Source: an uncultured SAR86 cluster bacterium (GTDB lineage Bacteria > Pseudomonadota > Gammaproteobacteria > Magnimaribacterales > Magnimaribacteraceae). From it: a stretch of DNA of 64,000 nt. Location: NCBI GenBank assembly GCA_902537425.1, contig CACBBD010000003.1, positions 1 through 64,000 on the forward strand, given 5' to 3'. The translations under genes and the position numbers were made by a program. Below the pieces are notes generated by a model, which ran no database searches, had not been told where the DNA came from, and saw only the letters and a list, made by a program, of their open reading frames with translations. Of this stretch, positions 584 to 9,206 are shown in pieces (position 1 is the first letter of the stretch; each line of letters starts with the position of its first letter).

Positions 584-1726
584 TTAAGGGCCAGACGAAA
601 GTCTGGCCTTTTCTTTATTTACAATTGGCCTAGCATAAGTCATCAAAAACTCGTTTCTCTCTTCAGGCTTCAAATTTGCACATCTCTTTTCAAGCATAGA
701 AATCTTGCTGGGCATATCCGATATTGTATCTTTATTCTCTTGTTGGATATTTATTTCAGGCAATAGATCTAAAGCTGCTTGGTTAGTGGGCCAAATATGA
801 TAATTATTTATAATTTCTCTCTGTATCATTTCAGCTAGATGGCGTGTTGTATCCACTGGATCAGAAATAGGTTTACATATATGTAAATGAACTCTGCCTT
901 TATAGCCAAAAATTCCGGTAGACATTTCTTTGATATCACTTTTATTTATTTCTTCAAGGGTCAAGGAATCCTGATAATCCCAACCTCTTGCTTTGACATA
1001 ATCCAATGGGTCATATTCATAGGAAATAACAATTGGAGTTAAGTTAACGCTTCTGACCCATTCATAAATTGAAAGTGCCTTTCTTTGATCTAGATATAGC
1101 ATTTTTAAAACACCCTCATCTGTAAAGTCATTACCATCATTTGCTCTTCCTTCTCTTTGAGCAATCCAGATACTCTCTTTATCATGCATTAGTGAATGAC
1201 TGATGTAAGCAGAGAGTTTTGATAATTTTCTTAAAGTTTCCTTTACTCCTTTGATATTTCTGTGAACTATGAAACTTTTATTCAGCCTCATAAGCATTTC
1301 AGCATACCCATCATCTAGAAGGTTATCTCCAATAGCGATTCTTACAGTACTGAGTCCTTGGGTATAAAGGAGATAATTTAGAAAAGCAGGATCAAGAGAT
1401 ATATCTCTGTGATTGCCTACAAAAAGTGTAGGTTTTTCAGTTAAATTCTCAACTCCACTATATGTAAAACCATCTGTTGTTTTGTCGATCATCTTCGTCA
1501 CTAAAGGAGCCAAACAGTCTTGAAATTGATCTATAGAATTGCAGTCAGAAAAAATCTGCTTAAATTTTCTTCTTAAATAAATGCGGTTTATCTTTGAGAA
1601 ATATTTATGGGATCTTGGAAAAATTAAACTAGAAATATAATTATAAAAATCTTCATTTGATTCTAGCTCATTCAGCTTTATGGCGACTTGATCATCGTCA
1701 TAAGAAGCTATATCACTAAAATCCAT
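584..1726 (-). CDS. PlsC-like glycerolipid acyltransferase
   Basis: This 380-residue protein has a PlsC/LPLAT acyltransferase core. A catalytic-type motif VGNHRDISLDPAFLN lies near residue 105, and IAQREGRANDG near residue 190 corresponds to the FPEGTRS block. The His-to-Asp spacing is HX5D instead of the common HX4D. Family knowledge implies acylation of a lysophospholipid or glycerol phosphate with acyl-CoA or acyl-ACP at the inner membrane; the exact acceptor is not visible. No signal peptide is seen. The gene starts 3 bases after the stop of the upstream alpha/beta hydrolase, so the two are probably co-transcribed. Its 3' end overlaps the porin terminator. Confidence 0.75.
   Translation of the reverse strand: MDFSDIASYDDDQVAIKLNELESNEDFYNYISSLIFPRSHKYFSKINRIYLRRKFKQIFSDCNSIDQFQDCLAPLVTKMIDKTTDGFTYSGVENLTEKPTLFVGNHRDISLDPAFLNYLLYTQGLSTVRIAIGDNLLDDGYAEMLMRLNKSFIVHRNIKGVKETLRKLSKLSAYISHSLMHDKESIWIAQREGRANDGNDFTDEGVLKMLYLDQRKALSIYEWVRSVNLTPIVISYEYDPLDYVKARGWDYQDSLTLEEINKSDIKEMSTGIFGYKGRVHLHICKPISDPVDTTRHLAEMIQREIINNYHIWPTNQAALDLLPEINIQQENKDTISDMPSKISMLEKRCANLKPEERNEFLMTYARPIVNKEKARLSSGP
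587..616 (+). terminator. Rho-independent terminator of the porin gene
   Basis: The stem GGCCAGAC (589-596) and GTCTGGCC (601-608) enclose the tetraloop GAAA and are followed by a T-rich tract (TTTTCTTTATTT). This is a perfect 8-bp stem with a stable loop. The same bases encode the last residues (RLSSGP) of the convergent acyltransferase gene on the other strand. Confidence 0.85.
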
Positions 1727-1729
1727 TTT

Positions 1730-2683
1730 TTATAATTGGTCTATGAAATCTATAATTTCTTTTCCAACAATAGTTGGCTGTCTATAAGTTATATCATGAG
1801 TTCCCTCTTCCAAAACAACAAGTTTTCCATTATCAAATATCCTTTGATATTCCTCTGACCCTGAAAAAGGAACTATTCCGTCTTTTTTTCCCCATAAAGC
1901 AAGCATAGGTATTTCTTTTTTACTAAGATTTTCGTACATGTCACGAACATCAAAAAGATTAAAATTCCTTATAGTTGATAAAAGAGATTCATTGAAACCT
2001 TTAAAACGCAGTTGATCTTGAAAGAGTGGTAAAAATTTATCTTCATTTATAGACAACGGATCATCGCTATATTGAGTTTCAGACATATTTCCTACGCCAT
2101 ATAATCTATGGCTAAATACTCTCCAGAACCAATCTCCAACGACGGGCATAGTTATCCATGATTTCGTCTGAGGAAGAGATTTACTGAAACCTGCAGGAGC
2201 AATTAATGAAACGCTTGTTACTTCGTTAGGATACTCAGCTGCATAATAAGATGCAATTGGTCCTCCCATGGAATAGCCAACTATATGAACTTTCTCATTT
2301 ATTTTTTGAGATAGTATCAATTCCCTCAAAGTTTCAAGATAAAGATGCTTATCGTATTTTGTTCTAGGCCTTTCTGAATAGCCTCTGCCAAAATGATCAT
2401 AAACAAGGACCTTGTAACCAGAGTTAGTGAAATTATCTAGTAAGCCTTGCCATACAAAACTAGGTGTTGAAAAGCCGTGCACCAAGATCAAAGTCCCCTT
2501 CAAATCGGTTGAATCGTCCGGTAAAAACCAACGATAATAGATATTGCCTCTTGAAAGCTCTACCCAATTTCCCTCAGAAGGAATATCTGATTGCAAAATT
2601 TTCTTTAATCCATAAATCTTATAAAGATAAGGTAAGGCCAAAGCCAAAAAAATAAATAAAATCCCTATTAAAAGTTTCTCCAT
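1730..2683 (-). CDS. Membrane-anchored alpha/beta hydrolase
   Basis: The protein is about 317 residues from the ATG at 2683; an upstream in-frame TTG at 2695 is less likely. The N-terminus (LLIGILFIFLALALPYLY) is one membrane segment or an uncleaved signal anchor. The fold shows an oxyanion strand LVHGFS, a nucleophile elbow GYSMGG, an acid region ALWGKKDGIVP and a C-terminal His in EEGTHDITY, giving a Ser-Asp-His triad. It resembles esterase/lipase-type hydrolases. Being coupled to an acyltransferase gene suggests a lipid substrate, but that is inference. Confidence 0.8.
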   Translation of the reverse strand: MEKLLIGILFIFLALALPYLYKIYGLKKILQSDIPSEGNWVELSRGNIYYRWFLPDDSTDLKGTLILVHGFSTPSFVWQGLLDNFTNSGYKVLVYDHFGRGYSERPRTKYDKHLYLETLRELILSQKINEKVHIVGYSMGGPIASYYAAEYPNEVTSVSLIAPAGFSKSLPQTKSWITMPVVGDWFWRVFSHRLYGVGNMSETQYSDDPLSINEDKFLPLFQDQLRFKGFNESLLSTIRNFNLFDVRDMYENLSKKEIPMLALWGKKDGIVPFSGSEEYQRIFDNGKLVVLEEGTHDITYRQPTIVGKEIIDFIDQL

Positions 2684-2730
2684 AGATAAGCTCAATCAAT
2701 ATAGTATAGTTATTAAAAATAGTAATATCT

Positions 2731-3495
2731 ATGCATCCATTTTTTCGAGATTTCAACTTTTATGGTTTTGTACATAGAGGTGGGGATGAAGTAGAAACAG
2801 AAAATACCTTAGAAGCCTTTGAATACTCATCAAATTTAGGATTTATTTTTATAGAAACAGATGTTCAATCTACTAAAGACGGTCATATAGTTATATTTCA
2901 TGACTCAACTTTAAAGAGGATGGCAGGTATAAATAAGCGTGTAAAAGACCTGATGTTAGACGAAGTAAAGGGAATAGAATTAATTAATGGTGGCAGGATC
3001 CCTTTATTAAGTGAAGCACTCGATAGCTTTCCTAACCTTAGATTCAATATTGATATTAAAACTGAGGATGCCTTAGAAAACACCGTTAAAATCATAAAAG
3101 AAATGAGATGCTTCAATAGATCCTGTTTAGCTTCATTCTCTTCTTCAAGATTAAATAGAATAAGAAAACTAGCCGGGCCAGAAGCATGCACTTCTTCTGG
3201 ACAAATGGATATATTCAAATTGATATGCAAATCTTTAGGAATTAGTTTAAGAATTAATACGGCTGATTGTGCTCAAATTCCTATAAAGCAATGGGGAGTG
3301 CCTATTCTCACTAAGAGATTTCTTCGAATTGCAAAGAAGGAAAATAAACTTGTTCATGTTTGGACTATCAACAATAAAGAAGAGATGTTCAAATTAATTG
3401 ACTTTGGTGTTGATGGAATAATGACAGATAAGCCTAGTATTTTAAAACAAGCCATGACTGAAAGAGGCTTTTCTGATTTAGGGAACTCTCCTTAA
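2731..3495 (+). CDS. Glycerophosphodiester phosphodiesterase
   Basis: This 254-residue TIM-barrel protein carries the GDPD signatures: FVHRGGDEVETENT (catalytic His and the N-terminal Glu), FIETDVQSTKDG (metal-binding E-x-D) and VIFHDSTLKRM (second catalytic His). The C-terminal GVDGIMTDKPSIL is the usual last strand. It hydrolyses glycerophosphodiesters to glycerol 3-phosphate and an alcohol, recycling phospholipid head groups. There is no signal peptide, so a cytoplasmic enzyme is expected. It is divergent from the hydrolase/acyltransferase pair across a 47-base gap, and its last 18 bases overlap the MFS gene on the other strand. Confidence 0.9.
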   Translation: MHPFFRDFNFYGFVHRGGDEVETENTLEAFEYSSNLGFIFIETDVQSTKDGHIVIFHDSTLKRMAGINKRVKDLMLDEVKGIELINGGRIPLLSEALDSFPNLRFNIDIKTEDALENTVKIIKEMRCFNRSCLASFSSSRLNRIRKLAGPEACTSSGQMDIFKLICKSLGISLRINTADCAQIPIKQWGVPILTKRFLRIAKKENKLVHVWTINNKEEMFKLIDFGVDGIMTDKPSILKQAMTERGFSDLGNSP

Positions 3496-4725
3496 AATTA
3501 TTAATCCAGGTATGAATAATAAAAGTAAGCTTAGTATGCCTAGGCTAGGGCTATCTGTTAAGAGTGCAATTCCTGAGACCATGAAGGGACCTATAAAGAC
3601 TGAAGATTTTCCAATGAAATTATAGAATCCAAAGAATTCTGCCGCTTTATTGCTGGGTATTAGGCTACTAAAATAAGACCTGCTGATAGCCTGTACTCCA
3701 CCTTGAACAAGACCGATGATAGATGCCATGATAAAAAATTCTAATGCACTATCCATCTGGGAACTAAATATAACGACTCCTATGTAGATGATAATCGCAA
3801 ATGAAAGAGATTGTTTATGCCCGAATTTGTCAGAATACCTTCCAAAAGCTAGTGTTGCGGGAAAACCAATAAATTGAGTAAGTAAAAGAGCTGCTATCAT
3901 AGATTGTGCTGAAAGGCCTATATCAGAACCATAAGATGTTGCCATTCTTATGATCGTATCTACACCATCCATGTAAAGAAAATATGCTAGTAAGAAAATA
4001 ACAGCACTTTTATATTGTCTGACCGAACTTCCTGTTTGGTAGAGACTAGAGAAAGCTTGCCCTGAAATTTCAAAAAAACTTTTCCTACTTACTGAGAATT
4101 GAGGCTCTTTTACACCTGTAAGTAGAGGAAGTGTAAAAATACTCCACCAGATAGCTACACTCAAAAAAGACCATAAAACAGACTCAATTTGTGAATTAAG
4201 TCCAAAGAAAGATGGAAAAGAGAACATTAAGACATTGATTAAAAATAATATCCCTCCACCAAGATAACCAAGAGAAAATCCTAAAGATGATACACGATTC
4301 CTTTCATGATCTTCAGCAACCGAAACTAATAAAGAGTCATAGAAGATATTTCCACCTGAAAATCCAATCACACCAAGTGCATAAAAGGTAATAGCAAATT
4401 TCCATGAACTTTCAGGAACGAAAAATAAATAACCAGTTGCTATTATTCCTAAAACTGCGAACGTTAGAAGCAGCTTTTTTTTTGAGTTTCCTACATCGGC
4501 GTAAGCCCCTAAAATAGGTGCACTTAAAGCTATCAGTAAACCAACAACAGAATTTGCTGTACCAATGACAAATGTACTCTCTCCATCAGTTAAATCGTTT
4601 GCCCAAAAAGATTTAAAAAAAATAGGGAAAAAACCAGCCATTACAGTTGTGGCAAATGCAGAATTAGCCCAATCATAAAAGGCCCATCTCCATGCTTGTT
4701 TTGATAATTTTCTTTGACCTTTCAT
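3478..4725 (-). CDS. MFS transporter, UMF1/Atg22-like
   Basis: I take the ATG at 4725 (MKGQRKLSKQAWRW...), giving 415 residues. A longer frame from a TTG at 4803 adds 26 atypical residues and would cross the small ORF on the opposite strand. After the start comes WAFYDWANSAFATTVMAGFFPIFF, the conserved opening helix of the UMF1 (Atg22-like) branch of the major facilitator superfamily. About 12 hydrophobic segments follow, with an internal loop GRYSDKFGHKQSL typical of MFS. It is a proton- or solute-coupled exporter or importer; the substrate cannot be read. The 3' end overlaps the phosphodiesterase gene convergently by 18 bases. Confidence 0.82.
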   Translation of the reverse strand: MKGQRKLSKQAWRWAFYDWANSAFATTVMAGFFPIFFKSFWANDLTDGESTFVIGTANSVVGLLIALSAPILGAYADVGNSKKKLLLTFAVLGIIATGYLFFVPESSWKFAITFYALGVIGFSGGNIFYDSLLVSVAEDHERNRVSSLGFSLGYLGGGILFLINVLMFSFPSFFGLNSQIESVLWSFLSVAIWWSIFTLPLLTGVKEPQFSVSRKSFFEISGQAFSSLYQTGSSVRQYKSAVIFLLAYFLYMDGVDTIIRMATSYGSDIGLSAQSMIAALLLTQFIGFPATLAFGRYSDKFGHKQSLSFAIIIYIGVVIFSSQMDSALEFFIMASIIGLVQGGVQAISRSYFSSLIPSNKAAEFFGFYNFIGKSSVFIGPFMVSGIALLTDSPSLGILSLLLLFIPGLIILRRVP

Positions 4726-4766
4726 GTGATTTGTGGGAATAATAACCCTTTTATTGGGAGGAAAAA

Positions 4767-4877
4767 ATGGAAGAGGATAAAAAAACGTATAAATATATGA
4801 CAATGTTTAGTGTAATCATTGCTGTGGTTGTGGTGGCACAAATTATTTTGGCAAATTATTTGCAATCAATTTATTAA
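4767..4877 (+). CDS. Small single-pass membrane protein, 36 residues
   Basis: An ATG at 4767 has a very good ribosome binding site (GGGAGG, five bases upstream) and opens a 36-codon frame. The product has a short charged N-terminus (MEEDKKTYKY) followed by about 22 hydrophobic residues (FSVIIAVVVVAQIILANYL), so one membrane span is predicted. It lies 41 bases from the divergent MFS start and 35 bases before the nitronate monooxygenase gene, with which it may be co-transcribed. I know no family for it. Support is the Shine-Dalgarno strength and the clean transmembrane composition; the short length limits certainty. Confidence 0.6.
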   Translation: MEEDKKTYKYMTMFSVIIAVVVVAQIILANYLQSIY

Positions 4878-4912
4878 ATACAAATATTGGGACACAAAAC
4901 TAAGGAGAGAAT

Positions 4913-6049
4913 ATGAACTCAAAAATATGTGAACTTCTAGATATAGAATTCCCTTTAGTAGCTTTCACCCACTGCAGAGATGTGGTTGTAGCGGTATCTA
5001 AAGCAGGTGGATGTGGAGTTTTAGGCGCTGTTGGCATGTCACCAGAACAGTTAGAGAAAGAATTAACATGGATAGATGAACATATAGACGGAAAACCTTA
5101 CGGAGTTGATGTTCTAATTCCCAACAAGATGGTCGATCAAAGCGAGAAATTTGATGCAGAAAAATTAAAAGGAATGATTCCACAAGAATATGCTGACTTC
5201 AGAGCAGATGTTCTTGAAAACCATGACATAGAGGCTTCGGAGTTAAGAACTATAGATACAGCTGGTTCAAGTTTTGCTGCAAATACAAAAGCTGATGGAG
5301 CGAAAGCTCTTTTAGATGTAGCCTTTAGCCACCCTATCAAACTAATTGCTAACGCACTGGGCGTGCCACCCGATTGGATGCTCGAGATGGGAAAAGAAAA
5401 TGATGTAAAGGTTGCAGCACTTTTGGGAACTGCTCAGCATGCAATCAATCAGGTAAAAGCAGGTGTTGATATATTAGTTGTATCTGGTACGGAAGCTGGA
5501 GGCCACTGTGGAAGTGTTTCAACCATGGTACTCATACCTGAAGTTTACGAAGCAATTCAACCGTATGGTGATACACCAATCCTGGCTGCTGGAGGAATAG
5601 TAACTGGGAAACAAATGGCCGCAGCAATGACAATGGGAGCATCTGGCGCTTGGTGTGGTTCAGTATGGCTGACTACTGTGGAATCAGAAGTCCCTCCTGT
5701 TATTAAAGAAAAAATGGTTGCTGCTAATTCAAGTCAAACAACAAGATCAAGAAGTAGAACAGGCAAGCACTCGAGACAATTAGTATCTCCTTGGACACAA
5801 GCATGGGAATCAGAACAAGCTCCAGATCCTTTACCTATGCCTCTACAGCCGATGGTAGCTGAACCCGCTTTACAGAAGGTTGCTAAGCTAGCTGAAGGTG
5901 GACATGATGGAGCTAGAGACCTAGCAACTTATTGGGTTGGACAAGGAGTAGGTTTAATGAATCAAAGTATTTCTGCGAGTGATGTGGTTCAGGAATTCAA
6001 AGAAGATTTTGTAGAAGCTTATGAGAGATTAACAGGTTTTGTGTCTTAA
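4913..6049 (+). CDS. Nitronate monooxygenase family flavoprotein
   Basis: The protein is 378 residues, preceded by an AGGAG site. It has the NMO / 2-nitropropane dioxygenase TIM-barrel: an N-terminal strand IEFPLVAFTHCRDVVVAVSKAGGCGVLG, the FMN phosphate-binding segments VSGTEAGGHCG and ILAAGGIVTGKQMAAAMTMGASGAWCGSVWL. Family members oxidise alkyl nitronates with FMN and O2; many homologues have other, unknown substrates. The C-terminal section is hydrophilic, as in the long actinobacterial/gammaproteobacterial forms. Its stop overlaps the convergent PhyH gene stop by 4 bases. The fold is clear; the physiological substrate is not. Confidence 0.85.
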   Translation: MNSKICELLDIEFPLVAFTHCRDVVVAVSKAGGCGVLGAVGMSPEQLEKELTWIDEHIDGKPYGVDVLIPNKMVDQSEKFDAEKLKGMIPQEYADFRADVLENHDIEASELRTIDTAGSSFAANTKADGAKALLDVAFSHPIKLIANALGVPPDWMLEMGKENDVKVAALLGTAQHAINQVKAGVDILVVSGTEAGGHCGSVSTMVLIPEVYEAIQPYGDTPILAAGGIVTGKQMAAAMTMGASGAWCGSVWLTTVESEVPPVIKEKMVAANSSQTTRSRSRTGKHSRQLVSPWTQAWESEQAPDPLPMPLQPMVAEPALQKVAKLAEGGHDGARDLATYWVGQGVGLMNQSISASDVVQEFKEDFVEAYERLTGFVS

Positions 6050-6861
6050 TTAACTTCTTTACCATCTTGAAGAATTAAAAACTGTCTGTTTTCATCATTC
6101 AGGTCCTCAGTAAGAGACTGAGATATTACTCTTTTAGATCCCTCTGGTGCATACTGGAGAATATAAGATTTTCTAATATGATCTGATAAATTAGGCCCCG
6201 TCCTGTGCGGTGTTAAAGAAGAGAAAATTGCGATACTGCCTGCCTTCAGAGGTAAGCAAACTGCTTGGGATGTGTCTAAAGGTATTTCATGACCTAAATC
6301 TGTATTTTCATGGAAGAGAGTCCCCCGTCTATGAAGTCCAGGCATCACCCAAGGACAGCCATTAGATTCATCTGTATCTGTAAGAGCTACCCAACAAGTT
6401 AAGTAGGCCTGCGGCTCAATATAGGTATAACCATTGTCTTGATGCCAGGGAAATTCGTCTTTGGTACCTGGTTTTTTGTATACAGCTTGATCCCAATATA
6501 ACCTCACATCAGGTCCGATTAAATCTCTGCATATGTCAGTAAAAACTTTATGTTTACTAAATTCTTTCAGTTCATCAGACTGAGTTACAAGATGGGTGGT
6601 AAAAGTAATTTCTTCAGCTCTAGCAATAAAAAATTTACCACCATCAAGGCCTTTTAAAGCTTCAGTTACATTAAACTCATAAGGGTCAATTTGATCTACT
6701 ACTTTGTTGACTTCTTCGTCTGAAAAAGCATTTTCAAGTACAACATAACCTTTTTCGTTAAATGATGTGATGTCTTCATCAGAGAAGAATGTGTAAGGGC
6801 CATCAGGCATGGTCCAAGAAAAGCTCTTATTACTCTCATGTAACTTAATATCTTTATCCAT
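6046..6861 (-). CDS. PhyH-family Fe(II)/2-oxoglutarate dioxygenase
   Basis: This 271-residue protein is of the phytanoyl-CoA dioxygenase family. The iron ligands are visible as H140-Q-D142 in FPWHQDNGYTY and H219 in SSLTPHRTGP, with R230 (DHIRKSY) as the likely 2-oxoglutarate anchor. The WVALTDTDESNGCPWVMPGLHRRG block is the conserved beta-strand and loop that follow. Such enzymes hydroxylate an organic substrate while decarboxylating 2-oxoglutarate; the substrate is not inferable. It is the last gene of the 10912-to-6046 operon and starts 2 bases after the dihydroorotase stop. Confidence 0.88.
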   Translation of the reverse strand: MDKDIKLHESNKSFSWTMPDGPYTFFSDEDITSFNEKGYVVLENAFSDEEVNKVVDQIDPYEFNVTEALKGLDGGKFFIARAEEITFTTHLVTQSDELKEFSKHKVFTDICRDLIGPDVRLYWDQAVYKKPGTKDEFPWHQDNGYTYIEPQAYLTCWVALTDTDESNGCPWVMPGLHRRGTLFHENTDLGHEIPLDTSQAVCLPLKAGSIAIFSSLTPHRTGPNLSDHIRKSYILQYAPEGSKRVISQSLTEDLNDENRQFLILQDGKEVN

Positions 6862-6863
6862 AA

Positions 6864-8195
6864 CTATCTATCAAATTCCAATTGAACGCCTAAATTAGTT
6901 TCTACAATTTTTCCATTATTATAGGCAAGTTTACCATTCACAATAGTACTCATAACCTTTGAGCTAAAGGTCTCACCTTCAAAAGGCGACCAGCCACAGA
7001 AATAGAAAGTATTCTCTTTAGTAATTTTATGCTTAGATTCTAGATCAACGAGAACACAATCTGCCCAGTAACCTTCCCTAATGTAGCCTCTATCAACAAT
7101 TTTGAATCTATCAGCAACTTTATGTGAAAGATAGTACGGGAGATCATTCAATGAATAGATTCCTTCTTTAACAAGTTCCAAAAGAACAAGGAGTGAGTGC
7201 TGTACACTTGGAATACCTGAGGGACAATTCATATAGTCATTTGATTTTCCTTCCAAAACATGTGGAGCATGATCAGTAGCGACATAATCGATATAGCCCT
7301 CTAATAACGCCTTTCTTAGTGCATCTCTATCTGTGGACTCTTTCAAAGATGGATTACATTTTATTAAAGTCCCTTTGGTTGCGTAATCATCGCTTGAAAA
7401 GTAAAGATGAGGAATGCAAACCTCTGCAGTAATCATTTTTTCATTAAAAGGTTTATTAGAGAATAGTCCTACTTCTTCTTTGGTAGTTAAATGAAGTATA
7501 TGCAAATTAGAATTATATTTTGTGGCTAATTCGATAGCTTTTTTTGAGGATTTTAAACAAGCCTCTCTGGATCTAATGAGGCCATGCATTTCTACTGGAA
7601 TCTGTTCTCCATATTTAGCAAGATATTTTCTCTCCAATGATTTTATCATTGGGTCATCCTCGCAGTGGGTAGTAATAATTACCGGAGATTCTCTAAAAAG
7701 GTCATTCAAAGCATCCTCACTATCAACATGAAGATCTCCAGTAGAAGAACCCATAAATATTTTAATTCCACATACCTCCTTAGGATTTATAGCTTTTATT
7801 TCGTCTATATTGGAGTTGGATGTGCCCATGTAAAAAGAGAAATTAGCTGATGAAGTCTGGTTGGCAATGGAAATTTTATCTCTCCACAAATCAAGGCTAA
7901 GTGTAGGTGGGATTACATTCGGCATGTCCATAAAAGAGGTTGTGCCACCGGCAACAGCAGCCAAGGATTCAGTTTTTATATTTCCTCTCTCCGTCAGGCC
8001 AGGTTCTCTGAAATGACATTGATCATCTATTACTCCAGGTAGTAAATAATGACCTGCTGCATCAAGAATTTCTCCTTGAGGCTCTATATCATTTGCTATT
8101 TTCTCAAACCTACCCTCTTTAATAAGAATATCTTGTTCAGTTATTGAACCTTCATTTATAACTTTACAGTTTTTAATGGTGATTACATTACTCAA
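6864..8195 (-). CDS. pyrC: Class I dihydroorotase (cyclic amidohydrolase)
   Basis: The 443-residue amidohydrolase has the motif GVIDDQCHFREPGLTERG, the dihydroorotase-type segment GIKIFMGSSTGDLHVDSED, THCEDD, LHILHLTT and the metal Asp in YVATDHAPH. The first His of the usual H-x-H pair is Gln here (DDQCHF). As I recall, that is normal for the DDQ-x-HFREPG dihydroorotase subgroup found in Bacteroidetes and some gammaproteobacteria. The expected reaction is interconversion of carbamoyl-aspartate and dihydroorotate. The neighbours are two dioxygenases and another amidohydrolase, not pyrimidine genes, so another cyclic amide is possible. The start overlaps the preceding TauD gene by 4 bases. Confidence 0.8.
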   Translation of the reverse strand: MSNVITIKNCKVINEGSITEQDILIKEGRFEKIANDIEPQGEILDAAGHYLLPGVIDDQCHFREPGLTERGNIKTESLAAVAGGTTSFMDMPNVIPPTLSLDLWRDKISIANQTSSANFSFYMGTSNSNIDEIKAINPKEVCGIKIFMGSSTGDLHVDSEDALNDLFRESPVIITTHCEDDPMIKSLERKYLAKYGEQIPVEMHGLIRSREACLKSSKKAIELATKYNSNLHILHLTTKEEVGLFSNKPFNEKMITAEVCIPHLYFSSDDYATKGTLIKCNPSLKESTDRDALRKALLEGYIDYVATDHAPHVLEGKSNDYMNCPSGIPSVQHSLLVLLELVKEGIYSLNDLPYYLSHKVADRFKIVDRGYIREGYWADCVLVDLESKHKITKENTFYFCGWSPFEGETFSSKVMSTIVNGKLAYNNGKIVETNLGVQLEFDR

Positions 8196-8977
8196 TATGG
8201 TTTGCTCCCTGATGTGGTTAATCTATGCATTGTCCTTTCATTGTCTCCATATCCATGTTCAGCAAAATGCTGAACACTCCTATTGTCCCATACAATTAAG
8301 TCACCTTTCGACCATTTATGTCGATAAATATATTTTTCCTGGGATGCATGACTATATAGAAATTCAAGCTTTTGTTGAGACTCTTTGGGATCTAAGTCTT
8401 TAATTTTTTTAACGAATGCTTCTGTGACATAAAGTGCCTTTTTTCCAGTTTCAGGGTGCTCTCGAAAAATTGGATGCTCTACTGTCTTGGCATCCTTCAG
8501 ATCTCCACCTGACAACATTAATACTCCTATATTGCTATGAATTGCTTTTTTTTCTGAGAGCTCTGATTTTAGATCATGATCTAAATCATCATAAGCAAGA
8601 TACTGATTAGAGAATAGAGTATCTCCTCCTTCTTCAGGTACTACTAAAGAGTATAAAAGTGTTGCATCTGGAGGTGATTCTTCAAATGTTACATCCGAAT
8701 GCCAATGAGCATTTGTATGATATTGCTCGCCATAGTTTCTAATTTCAATAATTTCTGGATATCCCTCTATGCCTTTAAACACTGGATGAATTAAAGGTTT
8801 GCCCCATAAACTTGAAATATTTTTCAGTTGAGATGGATTTAATTTCTGATTTCTAAAAATAAGGACTGAGTTATCTAGAAAGCATTGCCTGATTTTTAAA
8901 GAATCATCCTCGGAAAGAATATTTAGATCTAATCCTGATATTTCTGCGCCTAAGGGTTTTAAGATTTTAATATCCAT
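8192..8977 (-). CDS. TauD/TfdA-family Fe(II)/2-oxoglutarate dioxygenase
   Basis: This 261-residue enzyme has the facial triad H93-S-D95 (NAHWHSDVTFEE) and H237 (NRSVQHFAEHGYGD), with Arg 252 (TMHRLTT) for 2-oxoglutarate. PPDATLLYSLVVPEEGGDTLFSNQYLAYD is the conserved TauD core. Known relatives act on taurine, alkylsulfonates or phenoxyacetates. No sulfonate transporter is adjacent, so the substrate stays open. It is third in its operon: 1 base after the Smr-like gene and overlapping the dihydroorotase gene by 4 bases. It is distinct from the second TauD homologue at 55751. Confidence 0.88.
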   Translation of the reverse strand: MDIKILKPLGAEISGLDLNILSEDDSLKIRQCFLDNSVLIFRNQKLNPSQLKNISSLWGKPLIHPVFKGIEGYPEIIEIRNYGEQYHTNAHWHSDVTFEESPPDATLLYSLVVPEEGGDTLFSNQYLAYDDLDHDLKSELSEKKAIHSNIGVLMLSGGDLKDAKTVEHPIFREHPETGKKALYVTEAFVKKIKDLDPKESQQKLEFLYSHASQEKYIYRHKWSKGDLIVWDNRSVQHFAEHGYGDNERTMHRLTTSGSKPY

Positions 8978-8978
8978 A

Positions 8979-9206
8979 TTATTTTAATTTATGGACTTTG
9001 ATTTGTCCGTACTCATGACCTGCCCCATTGTAATATTCGGCATTTGTTCTATCTAATACAGTTCTTACTAAAGAAAGCATTTTTTCACTGTTGCCACATA
9101 TTATGGTTAAAGGCATTTCTTCTTGGTTCAAAAAAACAAAGTTTTCAACTGCAATATCTACTTCATGATGTCTATATCCATGAAGATCTAGAACATGACT
9201 AGACAC
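8979..9206 (-). CDS. Small Smr-domain-like protein
   Basis: This 75-residue protein starts at GTG (9206), 5 bases after the D-aminoacylase-like gene. It opens with HVLDLHGYRHHEVDIAVENFV, matching the LDLHG...A...F start of the Smr (small MutS-related) domain. The usual HG-x-G loop is replaced by IICGNSEKM. Smr domains can be nucleases or RNA-binding modules; at this length it is only the core domain. Its place inside a catabolic operon is odd. The family call rests on the LDLHG segment and overall pattern. Confidence 0.55.
   Translation of the reverse strand: MSSHVLDLHGYRHHEVDIAVENFVFLNQEEMPLTIICGNSEKMLSLVRTVLDRTNAEYYNGAGHEYGQIKVHKLK

Follow-up and report, generated by a model that had tools for sequence, protein, structure and literature searches.

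The window analysed here, a stretch of 64,000 nucleotides from the SAR86 cluster of marine gammaproteobacteria, carries a small gene on the forward strand between a divergent MFS transporter gene and a downstream nitronate-monooxygenase-like (NMO) gene. The features of this locus are listed below in the order of their coordinates, where f1 denotes the window's own family within the order.

3478..4725, minus strand: MFS transporter gene, divergent; matches the Pfam families ATG22-like (PF11700) and MFS_1; the usual neighbour in three of four order families
4714..4743, plus strand: promoter-like site TTGACC-18-AATAAT, which overlaps the MFS gene at its start; 10/12 match
4756..4761, plus strand: ribosome binding site GGGAGG, present in the sequence and followed by the five-base spacer AAAAA and the ATG
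4767..4877, plus strand: gene for a 36-residue single-span membrane protein, ATG to TAA, stop codon included
4797..4856, plus strand: predicted transmembrane segment codons, residues 11-30, with the hydropathy peak at residues 11-29
4913..6049, plus strand: nitronate-monooxygenase-like gene, downstream; Pfam NMO; neighbour in 21/26 f1 loci

The original prediction had placed the small gene between these two neighbours, and the Pfam matches of both agree with it. It had also doubted that a TTG at 4803 could be the start of the MFS gene, rightly so: the start is the ATG at 4725, because relatives such as L004 open the MFS frame exactly at the equivalent ATG. At its other end the MFS gene converges with a gene that we take, by eye, to be glycerophosphodiesterase-like, and the 3' ends of the two overlap by 18 bases (3478-3495).

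Translation of 4767-4877 on the plus strand gives MEEDKKTYKYMTMFSVIIAVVVVAQIILANYLQSIY, a protein of 36 residues. The highest 19-residue hydropathy window covers residues 11-29 with a mean of 2.62, and AlphaFold2, given the window protein together with 17 SAR86 relatives, predicts a single helix from residue 2 to 35 at a mean pLDDT of 94.8. The GGGAGG five bases before the ATG and the 36-residue frame with one hydrophobic helix are thus as originally described. With no more than about 50 residues, one predicted helix and a coding sequence under purifying selection, the protein belongs to the single-span small membrane proteins, which are a kind and not a homologous family. Short open frames are frequent by chance in this region, with 68 of at least 25 residues listed for positions 1500-9000. 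Since frames of 25-40 residues are common by chance, the case for the small gene rests on its conservation.

Searched at the protein level with E<=10, the window's genome and its 60 relatives gave matches in 31/61 genomes, with a homolog in 26/35 genomes of f1 at 41-100% identity. In all 26 f1 loci the frame lies at the same place and is adjoined by the divergent MFS gene; start, stop and length are kept across the relatives, and a ribosome-site core, judged by a loose pattern, is present in 22/26. The original prediction had staked itself on relatives keeping both the frame and the ribosome site at this locus, and it survives on both counts. Differences between the sequences fall at codon positions 1, 2 and 3 in the numbers 476, 297 and 1373, and the 54 of 91 pairs for which dN/dS was computable have a median of 0.091. 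The excess of synonymous changes, which had been proposed as a check, is clear (pS 0.66 versus pN 0.09, pooled against the window). The small gene is under purifying selection and is almost certainly a genuine protein-coding gene; conserved in relatives as it is, it fits the earlier description of a real small membrane protein that gene callers easily miss. Nine f1 genomes gave no match. In two of them the contig stops short, after nine bases of the small gene in G029 and within the MFS gene in G004. The other seven also lack the MFS gene and the adjacent NMO gene, an absence of the whole block that may reflect joint loss or a gap in the assembly.

The promoter-like site upstream is no evidence by itself, given that a pattern scan of the window alone returned 3 sites against 2.1 expected, not above chance. 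Across the family, 22/23 f1 loci examined have TTGAC and, 18-22 bases further on, AATAAT. The TTGAC element overlaps the first MFS codons and is kept in L018 and L020 despite a codon frame other than that of the window, a retention that hints at constraint on the DNA itself, as of a promoter.

Beyond f1, a 30-row profile (A2) finds members in 163/203 genomes of the order, in 36/40 near-complete genomes and in 22/22 genera at an order-wide threshold of E<=0.1, near which some of the weakest matches may be chance. Copy number is usually one, and the members are single-span proteins of 32-55 residues, with those of family f3 reaching 52-55. Their neighbours differ by family: the MFS gene in f1-f3, HIT and DedA in f2 and f4, and NMO in part of f1. 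Such variation means that the small gene is not tied to one neighbour, and independence of this kind is expected of a stand-alone gene with a partner encoded elsewhere. At one f4 locus (L027) an acyltransferase-like gene, rather than MFS, lies divergent to the small gene, with HIT and DedA among the other neighbours; the same two genes flank the small gene at an f2 locus (L070), and downstream sequence similar to that of both occurs in L028, L030 and L071-L076, in HIT-family/DedA-like surroundings. Among 79 MFS loci of named genomes, which identify the group as the SAR86 cluster, 31 are from SAR86 by record title or close match and carry the small gene in 29 cases, the other two ending at a contig end; none of the remaining 48, outside the SAR86 set, matches the small-gene profile. 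One locus, L243 from Sulfurovum sp. E29_bin29, encodes an MFS protein that shares 51% identity with its SAR86 counterpart across almost the full length, and no small gene was found beside it; the contig is possibly misbinned. At E<=1 the window protein has no match in Pfam or NCBIfam, the A2 members give scattered weak matches for single members only, and literature searches, at the level of their listings, showed nothing about the small gene. It represents a SAR86 family that is order-wide and unnamed in both Pfam and NCBIfam.

The genomic setting suggests that the protein might assist or regulate the divergent ATG22-like transporter as one of its subunits, expressed from a shared divergent promoter region. 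The MFS gene is the divergent neighbour in every f1 locus, in 9/9 f3 genomes with an MFS gene and in 6/8 such f2 genomes, and the SAR86 MFS loci of named genomes lack the small gene only where the contig ends. The small gene is absent from all seven f1 genomes that have no MFS gene, but NMO is missing from them too, and a gap in the assembly may account for the absence of the whole block. In the other two f2 genomes, of genus g16, the small gene is not adjacent to MFS, and among f4 genomes covered by both searches 7/8 keep the small gene and 0/8 the transporter, which is not the behaviour of an obligate subunit. With the 48 MFS loci outside the SAR86 set that lack a profile match, this makes the transporter-subunit explanation unlikely, although it deserves to be kept in mind. 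An operon partnership with the downstream NMO-like gene would account for the shared strand and for a gap of 10-35 bases in most f1 loci (140 bases in L025). However, L020, L021, L022, L024 and L026 have another gene downstream, leaving NMO in 21/26 f1 loci only, and the downstream gene differs in f2-f4; synteny largely refutes this explanation, which we regard as very improbable.

Size and a single hydrophobic helix would also suit the small hydrophobic toxin of a type I toxin-antitoxin pair. Presence in most genomes and every genus of the order, usually as one copy, in fixed syntenic places and with a dN/dS of 0.09, speaks against a toxin and renders it highly improbable. The remaining explanation is a chance open frame whose apparent conservation reflects DNA-level constraint on the divergent promoter region. 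The conserved TTGAC and AATAAT elements do lie adjacent, but the concentration of substitutions at third codon positions, the low dN/dS and the retention of start, stop and length are properties of a coding sequence; this codon-level evidence refutes the chance frame, which is barely credible.

Probable relatives of the SAR86 family occur as stand-alone genes elsewhere in the Gammaproteobacteria. A2 matched 36 of 369 class genomes at E<=0.1, and 33 of these lay outside the order and matched weakly; among them was a stand-alone short open frame in G180. Searches with G180, and then with a five-row profile of stand-alone class frames (A3), returned short stand-alone frames of 33-35 residues, the loci from the A2 and G180 searches being inspected in part. 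A3 matched 20/369 genomes at E<=0.01, comprising the five input sequences, nine further short frames and six long frames (G243, G371, G103, G215, G169 and G144). All six long frames are N-terminal anchors of cytochrome c5-type proteins, an identity read from the loci and from overlap with separate c5 matches. A further profile (A4) was built from 13 of the 14 class sequences, leaving out G104, whose start is unclear; among solved structures, neither A2 nor A4 had a relevant match. The stand-alone set (L109, L110, L112, L113, L116, L174-L181 and L188) consists of single-span proteins of 33-35 residues, several with a D-x24-A-N pattern, and five members scanned against Pfam had no convincing match. 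Neighbours of these genes vary and presumably include arsC-like, aat-like and metH-like genes.

The class proteins resemble the SAR86 family in size, in their one helix, in the acidic N-terminus and in the A-N after the helix, but they have other gene neighbours, and a search of four order genomes with the class family's own profile found nothing. Scored with A2, the class sequences stand above background (AUC 0.85, p 1.4e-5, with G180, itself found through A2, among them), and the profile-profile score between the two families is 22.8, in register across about 30 columns. The SAR86 family and the class stand-alone family are likely related on this sequence evidence. A relationship between the class family and the c5 anchors is well supported by a profile-profile score of 32.1 and an AUC of 0.77 (p 4e-5).

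The likeness between the SAR86 family and the c5 anchors themselves is suggestive. Compared with an independently gathered c5-anchor set, which includes a wrong segment (L193) and lacks L215, the SAR86 family scores 22.7, in register over 31 columns; the best of 45 MFS/DedA helix controls against the SAR86 profile reaches 13.6. None of 150 column shuffles, which keep head and helix composition, attained the observed scores, the best being 17.8 for the class family and 20.2 for c5. Single helices resemble one another easily. At the level of single sequences, 22 c5 anchors against 102 background membrane segments gave a non-significant AUC of 0.56 with A2 (p 0.18); f1 alone gave 0.615 (p 0.046) in the same test. 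The 0.56 comes from a repeat of a first run, at 0.49, in which the background was biased by loci fetched for matching the profile and which were left out of the repeat. The c5 anchors took 6 of the top 10 places in the sequence-level ranking (hypergeometric p 0.002), and in the profile-profile comparison f2 scored 14.2 against them, below its best control of 16.2.

Like the SAR86 protein, the c5 anchors have one helix after a short N-terminus rich in D and K/R, and 25 residues separate the conserved D from the A/S-N after the helix in both the window protein and the anchor L189. Unlike c5 proteins, the window protein is the product of a stand-alone gene without a periplasmic domain or heme motif; its 36 residues contain no CxxCH and no cysteine. 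The order has c5-like proteins of its own, in 30/61 genomes, most of which start, by eye, with apparent signal peptides and not with this anchor. When a c5 protein was searched against the PDB, 8smr chain L ('Cytochrome C5') matched its later part only, query residues 42-155. That the small gene is one half of a split cytochrome c5 is weakened as an idea by the class genomes G183 and G206, each of which carries both a stand-alone protein and an anchored c5.

In the role that we propose, the short charged N-terminus (E-E-D-K-K) would stay in the cytoplasm, one helix would cross the inner membrane, and the periplasmic part would amount to a few residues in three families or about 20 in f3. A 36-residue helix with almost no periplasmic part leaves no room for catalysis, so the protein may be a helix-only accessory subunit, lying against a larger complex of the inner membrane and stabilising or tuning it; we consider this quite possible, a little short of probable. 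Packing beside a larger membrane protein is the most frequent known role of proteins of this kind, examples being CydX, CcoM, KdpF and AcrZ. These too have about 30-50 residues, one helix and no catalytic residues; unlike them, the small gene has no Pfam or NCBIfam match and no linkage to a complex was found.

Because of the likeness to the c5 anchor helix, the best candidate partner for this accessory subunit would be the aerobic respiratory chain, in the form of an aa3-type oxidase or the bc1 complex. We hold a respiratory partner to be doubtful, if somewhat more than speculative, and found the small gene neither physically nor genetically linked to any respiratory gene. A CcoM-like small subunit of a cbb3 oxidase was considered and rejected: FixO (PF02433) occurs in 1/61 genomes and cbb3 is essentially excluded in SAR86, whereas a COX1-family oxidase is found in 58/61 genomes and in 26/26 near-complete ones, leaving a presumed aa3-type oxidase or bc1 as candidates. 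The sole FixO gene (G032:C3:4860-5396) is in a genome with two further COX1-family genes, which suggests gene transfer or contamination. A wider reading, tentative and on present evidence unlikely, is that the c5 anchor and the gammaproteobacterial stand-alone microproteins, with the SAR86 family as their streamlined branch, could be one ancient helix module docking at the same site of the aerobic respiratory chain; SAR86 would then have kept the free-standing subunit alongside c5-like heme proteins without the anchor.

SAR86 bacteria are among the most abundant uncultured bacteria of the surface ocean and have streamlined genomes. Where 36 of the 40 near-complete genomes in an order of this kind retain a gene, that gene should be important to the cell; even so, neither Pfam nor NCBIfam has a model for this one, and it is so short that gene callers may skip it. 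If the likeness to the c5 anchors is true, the family would suggest a missed small subunit of the gammaproteobacterial respiratory chain, one that would be open to tests in laboratory strains.
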